DNA of 44,293 nt. Origin: Desulfobacca acetoxidans. GTDB lineage: Bacteria > Desulfobacterota > Desulfobaccia > Desulfobaccales > 0-14-0-80-60-11. This document shows, piece by piece, positions 29,234-34,801 of this stretch (positions are counted from its first letter, which is position 1; every line of letters begins with the position of its first letter). The notes under the pieces were generated by a model. It had not been told where the DNA came from. It saw only the letters and a list, made by a program, of their open reading frames with translations, and searched no databases. The stretch spans positions 1-44,293 of the forward strand of contig DYLF01000001.1 of the NCBI GenBank assembly GCA_020722205.1. The letters run 5' to 3'. A program made the translations under genes and the position numbers.

Positions 29234-30448
29234 TCAGAAAAAAGAGTGCTGTCTGGCCAGGGAGATTTTTTCAAAGTGACCGCGGTTGACGGGGGGAACA
29301 GGGGCTTGAGCCACCCACAGAGTCAAATCGGCCGGAGCGCAGAAGGTGCAGACCACGCTGCCGGGGTTGGCGATCTGAGGGTCGGCCAAGATTTTTTTTA
29401 AGGTGGCGGGGGTCAGGGGAGGTCGCGCGAGTTGTTGGAGACGGGTGTTGCGGGCCTGGCTGTATGCTTCAGAAAAGTAATAAGAGGGTAGGACGGAGAG
29501 GGGAGGCCGGCGGGGGAAACGGCCTTTGACGGCGGCCATCGCCACGCTCTGGTAGTGATTGGTGACGGTGAGGAGGCCGTTGACCGGGTGGCGCACGGCG
29601 GCATGGCGGGCGGAGATTTCCAGCACTAAAGCACCCTGGGGGCCGCACAGCAGGACATTGTTGCCGATGGTCGCCGGGGCCTGCAGGATGCGGACGGCCA
29701 CTTCCTGGACATTATCAGCCTTTTCCAGGGCCTGGCGGAAGCGTAGGGCTGCGGGCATGCCTCGGAGAGAGCATTCCCGGCTCATGGCTGAGAGCTGGGT
29801 AAGGGAGACGCCAGCGCGGTTCAGGCCGGTGCACACCCCGATATAACCGGGCCAGGCCAGGGAGGCCAGGGGGAGTCCCTGGTGCGGACGGATAACAAAA
29901 AGGGTCTGCAACTCCACCAAAACGTCAGTAAATAGAGGGTAATCCAAATTGCGACCGGTGAGCCAGGCGCCGGTCTCTGTGAGGTCAGGCCCCACCGCCA
30001 AAGCAGAACAACGGGGGAAATTGTTGGCCAAATCATCGAGGACATTAATGAGGAGGAGAAAAGTCGGTTCCAGGTGGGCCCCGGCCGCCAGTCCCCGAAT
30101 CTCCTCCCTGAAACTTGAAGGGATGAAAGTCCAGAAGCGGCGGGAGAAGAAGAGTAGAAGCCCCAGCACTGGGGCCAAGCCGACCAAGCCGGTGACCTTA
30201 AGCAGGTAGCTGAGCAAAGCCCGGCGCATGCGGCGGATTTCAAGGGCCAGAAGTTCACCATGGCGGCGGCCGCGTTGCATGGGGTCGCCGGCCAATTCGA
30301 TGATCCTTAGGGGCATAAAAGGGCTTAGTAAATTACCGGTCGCACCTTGATAAATTTCTGTCGGCCAATCGTGGTAAAGGGTGCTGATCTTAAAGTGTAG
30401 CAGAAAGGGAGGCTGTCGGCTATTCGGCGAGCGATCACCAGCCTCCAT
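29234..30448 (-). CDS. C45-type Ntn-hydrolase/acyltransferase-like protein in the pab operon
   Basis: The product is up to 404 residues. The core begins MPLRIIELAGDPMQRGRRHG (residue 45), typical of the C45/acyl-CoA:6-aminopenicillanate acyltransferase-like family. The expected autoprocessing nucleophile is C147 in NNFPRCSALAVGPDL, followed by LTGRNLDYPLF. Later segments (TGLNRAGVSLTQLSAM and VTNHYQS) also fit. Members cleave or transfer amide-linked acyl groups; the substrate here is unknown. The ATG at 30448 overlaps the pabC stop as TAATG, suggesting coupling, but the first 44 residues are unlike the family, and the ATG at 30316 is the alternative start. A hydrophobic stretch at about 86-102 may associate with membrane. 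Confidence 0.75.
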   Translation of the reverse strand: MEAGDRSPNSRQPPFLLHFKISTLYHDWPTEIYQGATGNLLSPFMPLRIIELAGDPMQRGRRHGELLALEIRRMRRALLSYLLKVTGLVGLAPVLGLLLFFSRRFWTFIPSSFREEIRGLAAGAHLEPTFLLLINVLDDLANNFPRCSALAVGPDLTETGAWLTGRNLDYPLFTDVLVELQTLFVIRPHQGLPLASLAWPGYIGVCTGLNRAGVSLTQLSAMSRECSLRGMPAALRFRQALEKADNVQEVAVRILQAPATIGNNVLLCGPQGALVLEISARHAAVRHPVNGLLTVTNHYQSVAMAAVKGRFPRRPPLSVLPSYYFSEAYSQARNTRLQQLARPPLTPATLKKILADPQIANPGSVVCTFCAPADLTLWVAQAPVPPVNRGHFEKISLARQHSFF

Positions 30449-31350
30449 TACTTTCCCGACGGCTCGGCGGCCGCGGCCAGACAGTCCCGGAGGAAGGAAG
30501 TGGCTTGGGGAGAGAGGGGCACCGGGGCGCCATCCAGGGAGGACACCGGCATGAGGCCCAGCAGCGAATTGGCCAGCCAGAGTCCATTGGCGGCCCGCAG
30601 GCGGGAGATAGCGGTGGGGAGGTATTTAAGTCCTTGCCCTCGCCGGGCCAGGGCTTGGGAGAGCACCGCCAGGGTGACGCTGGGCAGGGCGCTGGCGGCA
30701 GCTGGGGTAAATAACCGCTCCCCTTCCAGGTACACCAGACTGGTGGCCGCCCCTTCCGAAACCAGTCCGTCGCTTTCCAGGACGATGGCTTCCCGGGCCC
30801 CCCGGTCCAGGGCATATTGTCGAGCAGTAAGATAGAAGAGATAATTGAGGCTCTTATGGCGGCCGACGAAGATGGAACGTCGCTGGGGGAAGACCGCCAC
30901 TGGCCAGCCGCTGGCATACTCCGCCGGGCTGGGCGGAGTATAGGGCCGGGCGTATATGACCAGGGTGGGCGAGGGCTGGGCGGGCAGACCCAGCTCCGGG
31001 TGCGTGCCCCGGCTGATAAGAATCTTTACTGCCGCCAAGCCATCCTTCAGCCCGTTGGCCGCCAGCACCCGCGCCAGACGCTCCTCCCAGGGAACGCCTT
31101 CCGGAAAGGCAATCCTGAATTCCTGGGCCGAAGCTTTAAGTCTCTCCATGTGCTCCGTCAGAAAAAGGGGGCGTCCGGCCTCCGCCCGCAAAGTCTCGAA
31201 AAACCCGTCCCCGTAAAGAAAACCCCGGTCCTGGACGGAGACCCGGGCTTCGGCCAGGGGCAAAAGCTCATCATTCAGCCAGACGTACTCAAGACTCGGA
31301 GGGTGGGGACCGGAGATGGGAGAGGGGAAGTGGAGGTTAGGTGATTTCAT
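30448..31350 (-). CDS. pabC: Aminodeoxychorismate lyase (class IV aminotransferase family)
   Basis: The 300-residue product belongs to PLP fold-type IV enzymes. It has VSVQDRGFLYGDGFFETLRA near the N-terminus, the PLP lysine in VGRHKSLNYLFYLT, and GLVSEGAATSLVYL. PabC removes pyruvate from 4-amino-4-deoxychorismate to give p-aminobenzoate for folate. Location directly after pabB, with three bases between stop and start, favours this over a branched-chain or D-amino-acid aminotransferase; a separate IlvE is encoded at 24087. The N-terminal 20 residues are Pro-rich and may be an extension. Confidence 0.88.
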   Translation of the reverse strand: MKSPNLHFPSPISGPHPPSLEYVWLNDELLPLAEARVSVQDRGFLYGDGFFETLRAEAGRPLFLTEHMERLKASAQEFRIAFPEGVPWEERLARVLAANGLKDGLAAVKILISRGTHPELGLPAQPSPTLVIYARPYTPPSPAEYASGWPVAVFPQRRSIFVGRHKSLNYLFYLTARQYALDRGAREAIVLESDGLVSEGAATSLVYLEGERLFTPAAASALPSVTLAVLSQALARRGQGLKYLPTAISRLRAANGLWLANSLLGLMPVSSLDGAPVPLSPQATSFLRDCLAAAAEPSGK

Positions 31351-31353
31351 TGT

Positions 31354-32784
31354 TTATCGCCTTTTGTCTCCCACCGCTTGCCCCCCGGCTCCGGCTTCCC
31401 GCCTGTCGCCTATTAACCGGAACAAGGTGCGGCCTTTATGAAGGGTTTCCTCGTATTCTTCTTCTTCGTTGGAGTCATAGACCACGCCGCCACCCACCGA
31501 AAAATGGGCCAAGCCCCGGGAGATGACGGCGGTGCGGATGGCCACGTTCAGATCAAGATTGTCATGCAGCCCCAGATAACCTATAGCCCCGGTGTAAACA
31601 TGGCGAACATGGGGCTCCAGTTCATCAATAATCTCCATGGCCCGGATCTTGGGGCAACCGGTGATGGAGCCGCCGGGAAAGGTGGCCCGAAGGATATCCA
31701 CGTGACCGACTTCCGCACGCAAAGTCCCAGTGACGATGGACACCAAGTGATAAACGTTCTGGTAGGCCTCCAGACGCTTGTGTTCCGCCACTTTGACGGT
31801 GCGGGCGCGGCAGACCTTCCCCAAATCGTTGCGCAACAGATCCACGATCATGGACAGCTCGGCATCGTCTTTTACACTGGCCGTCAGCTCCCGCCGCAGG
31901 GCTTCGTCCTCGGCCGGGCTCCGCCCCCGGGGGCGGGTCCCTTTAATGGGCCGGGTCTCCAGGTACTGGCCCTGGCGAAAGAGAAAGCGCTCCATGGAGG
32001 TGGAGAGAATAACAAAATCCCGACAATTGAGGTAGGCAAAAAAAGGAGCCGGGTTCAAAGCAAAAAGCCGCCGGAAGAGGGAATAAGGTTCCCCGGCCAG
32101 GGGAAAGGAAAAACGTTGGGAGAGGTTGACCTGATAGACGTGCCCCCGGCGGATGTACTCCCGGATGCACCGCACGGCCTGGAGGTACCCCTCCCGGGTA
32201 AAATTGCTGCGCAGAGCGCCCACCTGATAGCCGTCCCGGTCCGGCTGACTGACAGGCAAAGACTTTGAGGCCGGAGGGTGAACACCTCCTCGGGCGTCTT
32301 CGTAAATTATGGCCACCTCCCAGAATCTTTGGCTCCGGCGGTCATGCACCACCAACCGGGATGGGAAGGCAAAGACCATTTCCGGCAGGTGGAGGTCGTC
32401 TCTCACAGTGACCGGCAGCCTCTCTAGGTGGTTTTTCAGGTCATAGGCCAAAAACCCTAAACCGGCGGCGCTCACCGGAAAAAGGGGGGTTGGTCCGGGA
32501 AGGGACAGCTCGGCCAAAAGGTCTGCCAGGAGGTGGAAGGGATCAGCTTGATGAAGCCGACTGTAGTTGCCGGTGTGAATCTGCACTCGGCGGCCCTTGG
32601 ACCTGATGACCAGAAAAGGGGCCCAGCCCATGATTGAGTAATGAGCGCAGTCCAAATCGCCCCCACTCAACAGAAGCATGGCGTAAGGGTAGCGGCAGAG
32701 GGGGGTAAAAAGGTCGGCCAAATCAGCGACGCCCGCCGGGGGATGGAAGGGTTTTATTTCCAGGTCAACAATGCGGCCGAACAT
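31354..32784 (-). CDS. pabB: Aminodeoxychorismate synthase component I
   Basis: The 476-residue product is a chorismate-binding enzyme. The active-site motif is PIKGTRPRG with K281, the lysine that marks PabB against TrpE (PIAGT). Further conserved blocks are DDAELSMIVDLLRNDLG, TFPGGSITGCPKIRAMEIID and TGAIGYLG. The N-terminal half carries the binding region for the glutamine amidotransferase subunit. Together with PabA it makes 4-amino-4-deoxychorismate from chorismate. It is read after pabA, with a 71-base gap that contains a perfect hairpin. Confidence 0.93.
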   Translation of the reverse strand: MFGRIVDLEIKPFHPPAGVADLADLFTPLCRYPYAMLLLSGGDLDCAHYSIMGWAPFLVIRSKGRRVQIHTGNYSRLHQADPFHLLADLLAELSLPGPTPLFPVSAAGLGFLAYDLKNHLERLPVTVRDDLHLPEMVFAFPSRLVVHDRRSQRFWEVAIIYEDARGGVHPPASKSLPVSQPDRDGYQVGALRSNFTREGYLQAVRCIREYIRRGHVYQVNLSQRFSFPLAGEPYSLFRRLFALNPAPFFAYLNCRDFVILSTSMERFLFRQGQYLETRPIKGTRPRGRSPAEDEALRRELTASVKDDAELSMIVDLLRNDLGKVCRARTVKVAEHKRLEAYQNVYHLVSIVTGTLRAEVGHVDILRATFPGGSITGCPKIRAMEIIDELEPHVRHVYTGAIGYLGLHDNLDLNVAIRTAVISRGLAHFSVGGGVVYDSNEEEEYEETLHKGRTLFRLIGDRREAGAGGQAVGDKRR

Positions 32785-32855: not shown

Positions 32856-33416
32856 TCATAGTCTCAAAAAATTGGCTACCAAGGCAACACCGCCCTGAGT
32901 CAGAAAAGATTCAGGGTGGAACTGTACGCCGTGCAGGGGAAAGCGCCGGTGGCTGAGTCCCATGACCACTCCGTCCCTGGTCCAGGCGGTGATCTCCAGC
33001 TCCGGAGAGCAAGGCCTTGCCATCAGGGAGTGGTAGCGCGCGGCCCAGAACGGGGAAGGGAGCCCGGCAAAAATTCCCTGACGCTGGTGGAAGACCTGGG
33101 AACGCTTGCCGTGCACCGGCACCGGCGCGCAAGTGGTGGCGCCGCCAAAGACTTCGTTGATGGCTTGATGCCCCAGGCAGACTCCTAAGATAGGGAGATC
33201 CTGATAAAAATGGGCGATCACCGCTTTGCTGATGCCGGCTTGGGCCGGATCCTTGGGTCCTGGTGAGATGCAGAGCCAACGAGGGTGCAAGGCCGCAATC
33301 TCGGCCAGCGTAATGGCGTCGTGACGGAAGACCAGGACTTCAAGATCGAATTCATAAAAGAGTTGCACCAGGTTGTAGGTGAAGGAGTCGTAATTGTCGA
33401 TCATTACCAGGCGCAT
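32856..33416 (-). CDS. pabA: Aminodeoxychorismate/anthranilate synthase glutamine amidotransferase subunit
   Basis: The 186-residue product is a class I glutamine amidotransferase of TrpG/PabA type. It begins MRLVMIDNYDSFTYNLVQ. The catalytic triad is visible as C80 in GVCLGHQAI, H167 and E169 in VQFHPESF. It supplies ammonia to PabB. Because pabB and pabC follow, I call it pabA, although such subunits can serve both the folate and tryptophan enzymes. GGAGG four bases before ATG 33416 is a strong ribosome binding site. The leader contains a promoter, a leader ORF and a terminator-like hairpin. Confidence 0.93.
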   Translation of the reverse strand: MRLVMIDNYDSFTYNLVQLFYEFDLEVLVFRHDAITLAEIAALHPRWLCISPGPKDPAQAGISKAVIAHFYQDLPILGVCLGHQAINEVFGGATTCAPVPVHGKRSQVFHQRQGIFAGLPSPFWAARYHSLMARPCSPELEITAWTRDGVVMGLSHRRFPLHGVQFHPESFLTQGGVALVANFLRL

Positions 33417-33475
33417 ACGGCCTCCTCAAAAAGAAAAGCCACCCAGGGGGAGCCTGGGTGGCTGTCGCCTGACAT
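33404..33475 (-). CDS. Putative 23-residue leader peptide of the pab operon
   Basis: A 24-codon frame starts with ATG 33475, two bases after AAGGAG, and ends with TAA at 33404-33406, inside the first codons of pabA in another frame. It begins MSGDSHPGSPWVAF and ends CAW. The hairpin at 33437-33463 lies entirely within it, so translating ribosomes would unfold the terminator-like stem. It has two Trp codons (positions 11 and 23). The spacing of two bases to the Shine-Dalgarno element is short, and the start of transcription may fall close to it, so translation is uncertain. Confidence 0.4.
   Translation of the reverse strand: MSGDSHPGSPWVAFLFEEAVCAW
33428..33463 (-). terminator. Attenuator-like terminator in the pabA leader
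   Basis: AGCCACCCAGG at 33437-33447 and CCTGGGTGGCT at 33453-33463 form a perfect 11-bp stem with a five-base loop. On the minus strand it is followed directly by TTTTCTTTTT, the form of an intrinsic terminator. The next upstream gene is divergent, so no other transcript can end here; it lies between the pab promoter and the pabA ribosome binding site. Confidence 0.75.
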
Positions 33476-33488
33476 AACTCCTTTTTAA

Positions 33489-33517
33489 ATTTTATGCTAT
33501 TGATGGCAGAGTGTCAA
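33489..33517 (-). promoter_or_regulatory. Strong sigma-70 promoter of the pab operon
   Basis: On the minus strand TTGACA (33517-33512) is followed after exactly 17 bases by TAAAAT (33494-33489), one mismatch from consensus. The transcript would start near 33482, about 65 bases before the pabA start. Confidence 0.75.
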
Positions 33518-33670: not shown

Positions 33671-34801
33671 ATGATCAACTGCGCGATTATCATTTGGTGG
33701 GCGCTTTTAAGCCTGGTTGTCCTGGCATTGCCCATGAGCTCGGTCGCGGCAGCCCCGGTGAAGCTGGGGTTGTATCTGCCCATGACGGGCACCGCGGCGG
33801 CGATGGGACAAATGGTGTGGGAAGGGGTGCAGCTCGCCCGGCAGCTCAAACCCCAGGTGTTGGGCCAGCCGGTGGAGCTGATCCTGGTGGATACCAGAAG
33901 CGATAAGATCGACGCAGCCAACGCCGTGAGCCGCCTGATTGAAAAGGAAAAAGTGGTGGCCCTTCTCGGCGAGGTGATCAGCAGCGACACCCTGGCCGGC
34001 GTGCCGATTGCCGAAAGGGCCGGCGTGCCCAACATCACCCCGACGGCCACCAATCCCCTGGTGACGCAGGGCCGACGTTTTGCCTTCCGGGCCTGCTTTG
34101 TGGATGACCTCCAGGGCCGGGTGGCAGCGCGCTTTGCCCGGGAGCACTTGAAGGCCAACAGGGCGGCGGTGCTCATTGACCAGGCTCAGGATTACTGTGT
34201 GGGTTTGGCCAATTTTTTTATGGAGGAATTCAAACACCGTGGTGGCCAGATCGTCGCCATTAGTTATATTCAGACGGGAGACCAGGATTTTACGGCCCAA
34301 CTAGCCTCTTTTAAAGGAAAAAAACCAGATCTGATCTATGCCCCCAACTATTATGCCGAAAACGCCCTCTTGGCCCGGCAACTTCAGGACCTGGGGATGA
34401 CGACGCCCATCCTGAGCGGCGACGGCGCCCAGGTGCCGGAACTCTTGAGTCTTGGCGGGCAGGCCGTGGAAGGCATGTACTTTACCGCCCATTTCCACCG
34501 GCAGGGGGCGACCACCCCCTTGGCTCGCTCCTATCGAAAGGCCTATGAAGACCTCTACCACAAAGACCTGGACGCCTTTTCCGCCCTGGGCGCGGACTGC
34601 TATTTCCTCCTGCTGCACGCCATCGAACAGGCTGGAGGTCTCTCCGGCGACAAAATCGCCAAGGCTTTGTCCCAGGTTGAAAACTTCCCCGGGGTCACAG
34701 GGGCAGTTACCATGGGGCCAGACCACAATCCGCTTAAAGGGGTGGTCGTGATTCAGGTGAAAAACGGCGTCTTTGCCTACCAGACTACTATTAATCCGTG
34801 A
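33671..34801 (+). CDS. ABC-type branched-chain amino acid binding protein (LivK-like)
   Basis: The 376-residue product has an N-terminal signal peptide (hydrophobic core about 7-24, ending SSVAAAP). A type I periplasmic-binding-protein fold follows. Visible blocks are [52 protein letters not shown], and [20 protein letters not shown]. These match the Leu/Ile/Val-type receptors (PF13458-type). No permease or ATPase gene of such a transporter is in the window. GAGG five bases before ATG 33671 supports the start. The stop overlaps the GTG of gyrA as GTGA, an unusual neighbour. Confidence 0.88.

Follow-up and report, generated by a model that had tools for sequence, protein, structure and literature searches.

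The window, i.e., the whole 44,293-nt stretch of Desulfobacca acetoxidans DNA analyzed here, carries the genes for p-aminobenzoate synthesis behind a short leader (Table 1). A sequence-only reading had described this leader as attenuator-like, with an overlapping leader ORF, and the parts it named (promoter, Shine-Dalgarno-like AAGGAG, ATG, 23-codon frame, 11-bp hairpin and U-tract, then pabA) were all confirmed on the minus strand. The AAGGAG lies between the promoter and the ATG at 33475, and GAGGAGG precedes the pabA ATG at 33416. It was also confirmed that the leader frame stops inside pabA, at 33404, and that the upstream neighbor, a gene at 33671, is divergent.

Table 1. Features of the p-aminobenzoate operon and its leader, in positions of the window.
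Feature	Position	Strand	Remarks
Sigma-70-like promoter TTGACA-17-TAAAAT	33489..33517	minus	match 11/12; predicted start approximately at the first base of the RNA motif
Promoter boxes TTGACA and TAAAAT, 17-nt spacer	33517-33512 and 33494-33489	minus	
Conserved RNA motif (putative aptamer/antiterminator), 31 nt, GAGUUAUGUCAGGCGACAGCCACCCAGGCUC	33450..33480	minus	covariance model R1, 50.5 bits; alignments A1, A5, A6
P1 5' strand GAGU	33477..33480	minus	paired in 100% of 96 sequences; variants G-C/A-U, A-U/G-U/G-C, U-A/U-G/G-C/C-G
Internal loop J1/2 UAUGUCA	33470..33476	minus	AUG and A before P2 invariant (column counts, alignment A6)
P2 5' strand GGC	33467..33469	minus	100% paired, C-G/U-G
P2 3' strand GCC	33460..33462	minus	common to P2 and terminator 5' arm
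Internal loop J2/1 ACCCAG	33454..33459	minus	A of GCCA in 100/100; its terminator partner not T in 10/100
P1 3' strand GCUC	33450..33453	minus	sits in terminator loop
Intrinsic terminator hairpin, perfect 11-bp stem and 5-nt loop	33437..33463	minus	mutually exclusive with P2
U-tract TTTCTTTTT	33428..33436	minus	directly 3' of hairpin
23-codon leader frame, ATG 33475	33404..33475	minus	ends inside pabA; judged incidental, frame not conserved
pabA, glutamine amidotransferase	32856..33416	minus	separate trpG paralogue elsewhere in genome
pabB, aminodeoxychorismate synthase component I	31354..32784	minus	TIGR00553 337 bits, cut-off 328; trpE separate
pabC-like aminodeoxychorismate lyase (class IV aminotransferase)	30448..31350	minus	scores below equivalog cut-offs
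C45-family autoproteolytic acyltransferase/hydrolase	29234..30448	minus	directly after pabC
LivK-type substrate-binding protein	33671..34801	plus	divergent neighbor of pabA

Four promoter-like sites were found in the promoter scan compared to 0.5 expected, the leader promoter being one with 11 of 12 positions matched. The terminator scan returned one terminator where shuffles gave 1.4; by single-sequence statistics the hairpin is therefore unremarkable, and it is conservation in relatives that gives it meaning. We gathered pabA orthologues from 59 related genomes and compared their upstream DNA. A conserved block stood ahead of all 27 same-order orthologues fetched and of one from a different family, consisting of GAGUUAUG, 2 to 4 nt, AGGC, a variable loop, GCCACCCAG(A/G)CUC, the terminator 3' arm, and a U-run. 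The consensus of the motif, 31 to 34 nt long, is GAGUUAUG-N1-3-YAGGY-loop-GCCAYCC(A/C)GRCUC. Among 163 distinct occurrences, mean pairwise identity was 0.97 over the first 8 nt and 0.93 over the last 13 nt, compared to 0.27 in the 30 nt upstream. A promoter-like site preceded the motif in 84 of these 163 relatives (24 in shuffles), with the -10 box mostly ending 6 to 9 nt before it, and transcription should therefore begin approximately at the G of GAG.

The same occurrences bear on the proposal that a leader peptide couples pabA output to translation efficiency or aromatic amino acid supply. Its basis in the window is the Shine-Dalgarno-like AAGGAG, the ATG and two Trp codons, and the AUG is invariant among relatives. 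The spacer after the AUG, however, is 2 nt in 46, 3 nt in 17 and 4 nt in 100 of the occurrences, so that no reading frame is kept, and 65 of the 163 reach a stop within two codons, often as ATG TAA TAG. The Trp codons are not conserved, the ORF lengths are scattered, and in relatives GAG stands just 2 nt ahead of the AUG. With its frame lost through the variable spacer and early stops, the leader peptide is not a conserved feature, and the invariant AUG is better read as an internal-loop residue of the RNA than as a start codon. Leader-peptide attenuation was rejected on these grounds, and we regard it as very improbable. A regulated promoter-proximal terminator before pabABC survives from the earlier description, while the overlapping leader ORF and attenuation through translation coupling or Trp codons do not. 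Put in terms of what defines such attenuators, a terminator with a competing antiterminator is present, and a conserved ORF with regulatory codons is absent.

The sequence-only reading had seen no clear antiterminator stem. Two stems, P1 (GAGU:RCUC) and P2 (GGY:GCC), were found at 33480-33450, too short to be spotted without relatives. In 96 distinct aligned sequences, fitted to the model in a way that favors the structure, standard pairs occupied every cell of both stems, compared to only 7 to 53% for slid-control pairings in the same alignment. Compensatory changes on both sides were seen in three P1 pairs, a result reached in 0 of 500 shuffles, and alignment A1, built without the model, gave the same P1 pairs with one compensatory change. 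P2 is short and mostly invariant; its support consists of one wobble change and of stem extensions in members with a long P2 loop (mean 1.28 extra pairs versus 0.51 in shuffled loops). Little or no variation was seen at loop residues AUG, A-GG and GCCA-CC (alignment A6). The 5' leader is thus a structured RNA conserved with covariation, and from these comparisons we take it to be a cis-regulatory RNA, the pabA motif, with the hallmarks of a riboswitch.

A terminator-like hairpin follows the motif in 99 of 99 distinct relatives, and its 5' arm, GCCAYCC, is the 3' half of the motif. As the 3' strand of P2 is also terminator 5' arm, P1 plus P2 and the terminator exclude each other, i.e., the expression platform and the putative aptamer compete for the common GCC. 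The Y position covaries with the terminator 3' arm (C-G 66, U-A 19, U-G 15, C-A 0), while the A of GCCA is invariant although its terminator partner has changed in 10 of 100 members, which argues that one strand serves two structures. Per column, conservation was 0.93 to 0.97 in the 5' half of the motif versus approximately 0.4 to 0.7 in the terminator 3' arm. In one leader on the minus strand of JAAELO010000330.1, the motif stands before pabA without a terminator 3' arm or U-run; this is perhaps a translational or decaying version.

Median energies were -4.2 kcal/mol for P1 plus P2 and -24.8 kcal/mol for the full leader. Because P1 plus P2 is weak compared to the strong terminator, termination is the expected default, and readthrough would need P1 plus P2 to be stabilized; by the logic of the pfl RNA (PMC2864571), this favors an ON switch. 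P1 alone leaves the sign undecided: a pseudoknot between GAGU and the terminator loop would be an alternative contact. A riboswitch of opposite sign would use that contact: folate, dihydropteroate or p-aminobenzoate would bind the terminator hairpin, with GAGU as a pseudoknot in its loop, and the stabilized termination would bring about feedback repression. An H-type pseudoknot between GAGU and RCUC is possible, and the P1 covariation fits both folds. End-product feedback is the commoner logic for biosynthesis, and biosynthetic genes are less often under ON switches, which counts against the ON reading. An aptamer embedded in a terminator also has a precedent in the HMP-PP riboswitch (PMC6478431). 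However, GGY is invariant, pairs with GCC, shows U-G variants, and belongs to a P2 that is extended in long-loop members, none of which a pseudoknotted terminator needs; the A of GCCA, moreover, stays fixed where its terminator partner has changed. We therefore consider an OFF switch rather unlikely.

The covariance model R1, built from the motif alone, had a single match in its own genome, the only one at E<=10. Across the host phylum, it matched 60 of 395 genomes, once in each. A match in genome G294 scored 27.8 bits. The motif was also found in 6 of 296 Spirochaetota genomes and in 7 of 20 genomes of a small candidate phylum, again one per genome, and it spans at least three bacterial phyla. 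A pattern scan of named genomes placed it on at least 119 public contigs, with Desulfosarcina, Desulfatibacillum alkenivorans, Desulfopila aestuarii, Desulforhopalus, and Desulfatitalea among the contigs listed. False positives are rare, as shown by one doubtful match in 350 genomes of the Anaerolineales phylum and none in the other 290 Spirochaetota. That doubtful match (DFBK01000009.1; L107/L254) has a hairpin and no U-tract and was set aside as chance or a divergent member; its downstream gene encodes an isochorismatase-family (RutB-like) hydrolase. A Paracidovorax match (L191) inside a coding region was set aside as chance.

A folate- or nutrient-sensing RNA-binding protein could in principle block the terminator by binding P1/P2, and a small hairpin whose loop is conserved is a typical binding site for proteins. 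Such protein-dependent antitermination nevertheless fits poorly with one site per genome over at least three phyla, and a non-systematic look at the neighbors of these loci revealed no conserved RNA-binding gene; we judge it quite improbable.

Downstream of the motif, pab genes were found on 97 of the 119 contigs listed, an SSS symporter on 7, and a LivK-type ABC transporter on 8, with 5 loci cut by contig ends and 2 with other genes. Among the 60 motif genomes of the host phylum, 50 were pab-linked, 9 transporter-linked and 1 left unassigned; an SSS symporter lay under the motif in 6 of 6 Spirochaetota and in 6 of 6 readable loci of the candidate phylum. The symporter has PanF as its nearest named family, scoring below the cut-off, and at LivK-type loci the gene under the motif encodes an ABC substrate-binding protein. 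Of the host-phylum genomes with the strong PabB type, 50 of 54 carry the motif. In genomes G231, G064 and G042, which have this PabB type, the motif was not detected, and in G042 the DNA upstream of pabA lacks it. As for gene fusions, PabA and PabB form one 717-aa frame under the motif in Syntrophobacteraceae JALOPI010000055.1 (L161), and PabB-PabC fusions of approximately 745 to 795 aa are common in other families.

The motif-associated PabB type was absent, with at most TrpE present, from 16 of 17 transporter-type genomes examined, a count to be read against an uncalibrated background frequency of PabB loss across the phylum, since other PabB types are common and not cleanly told apart, and many genomes are MAGs, some incomplete. 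In the one remaining genome (G159), a PabB-PabC fusion of another kind lies on a 6.4-kb contig. Dihydropteroate synthase scored above cut-off in 14 of the 17, so these genomes need p-aminobenzoate from somewhere. The motif accompanies genes of one metabolic theme across lineages, and the simplest account is one RNA placed over import or synthesis of the same precursor. From the gene context, the SSS and LivK-type transporters probably carry p-aminobenzoate or a close relative; no bacterial p-aminobenzoate importer in either family was found by name in the literature searched. The LivK-type protein encoded next to pabA in the window shares only ~25% identity with the substrate-binding proteins that pabB-less genomes carry under the motif, and its position is probably a coincidence.

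Across phyla, the motif consistently stands in cis to pab genes or to transporters of pabB-less genomes, which also bears on whether the leader is just a promoter-proximal terminator, or the source of a trans-acting sRNA, with no sensing. Promoter and terminator together imply a transcript of approximately 55 nt, as either would produce, and terminators are common; given this linkage and the better conservation of the motif 5' half than of the terminator 3' arm, such a role is extremely improbable.

Taking conservation, covariation, mutual exclusion, distribution, and gene association together, we infer a ligand-binding ON riboswitch, with a probability of roughly 0.7. The transcript would begin at about the first base of the motif, and its first 31 to 34 nt would fold into P1, the conserved asymmetric internal loop, and P2 (GGY-loop-GCC), forming a putative small-molecule pocket. 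Without ligand, the strong terminator would win and transcription would end; bound ligand would hold P1 and P2 long enough for RNA polymerase to pass, giving readthrough into pabABC or, in genomes without pabB, into a p-aminobenzoate importer. The ligand should report the need for p-aminobenzoate. Hydroxymethyl-dihydropterin pyrophosphate, the condensation partner of p-aminobenzoate, would suit this, as would another pterin or ZTP, and p-aminobenzoate itself or a folate is also possible. We consider it fairly likely that the motif represents a new riboswitch class and one of the smallest known, responding to a folate-pathway metabolite that signals a lack of p-aminobenzoate. It would turn on pabABC or, where bacteria of several phyla lack pabB, import through a previously unassigned SSS symporter and a LivK-type ABC transporter. 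If so, a very small riboswitch class would act in the pathway targeted by sulfonamide drugs, and it would indicate that two transporter families include bacterial p-aminobenzoate importers, where the pattern of synthesis or import under one RNA makes the assignment of transporter function directly testable.

Searches of Rfam 15 at gathering score (THF-I, ZTP, preQ1, HMP-PP, and others) with the window and 16 related loci gave no match, including to the folE family (THF-II), and at E<=10 only weak unrelated matches appeared, far below gathering scores. In the literature searched, with the 224 motifs of Weinberg 2017 compared via Rfam only, no p-aminobenzoate riboswitch or pabA leader RNA was found. 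Several known systems are nevertheless comparable. The preQ1-I riboswitch, whose minimal aptamer is approximately 34 nt and often comes with a terminator, is of similar minimal size but differs in its genes, no preQ1/queuosine genes lying downstream of the pabA motif. The trp-operon attenuator likewise combines a promoter-proximal terminator with an alternative structure in a chorismate-branch operon, whereas the pabA motif has no conserved leader peptide or control codons. A guanidine-IV variant (PMC9788692) was set aside, with no Rfam match and different genes. Like the pabA motif, the HMP-PP (thiS) riboswitch is very small, merged with an intrinsic terminator, and upstream of precursor biosynthesis, but the conserved stems of the pabA motif form only in place of the terminator and are not part of it. 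THF-II (folE motif) consists of P1, an asymmetric conserved internal loop and P2, and controls an early folate gene (PMC6800512), an architecture and setting shared with the pabA motif; it differs in being translational, with the RBS in P1, upstream of folE in Rhizobiales. The pocket strands of the Mesorhizobium loti RNA (G16 U U C A A C U C G25 / C43 U A C46, including C22 and U44; PMC9881143) did not match UAUG-n-YA / AYCC(A/C)G of the pabA motif by eye, and THF-II was excluded as a relative on account of these differing pocket sequences. In the ZTP (pfl) riboswitch, a Rho-independent terminator overlaps the 3' part of the aptamer, and an ON switch was predicted for that reason (PMC2864571); the folate link and the overlapping terminator are shared, while ZTP RNAs differ in sequence, are much larger, and serve purine and one-carbon rather than pab genes. 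The pabA motif is similar in logic or architecture to the ZTP and THF-II riboswitches but has no family signature in common with either.
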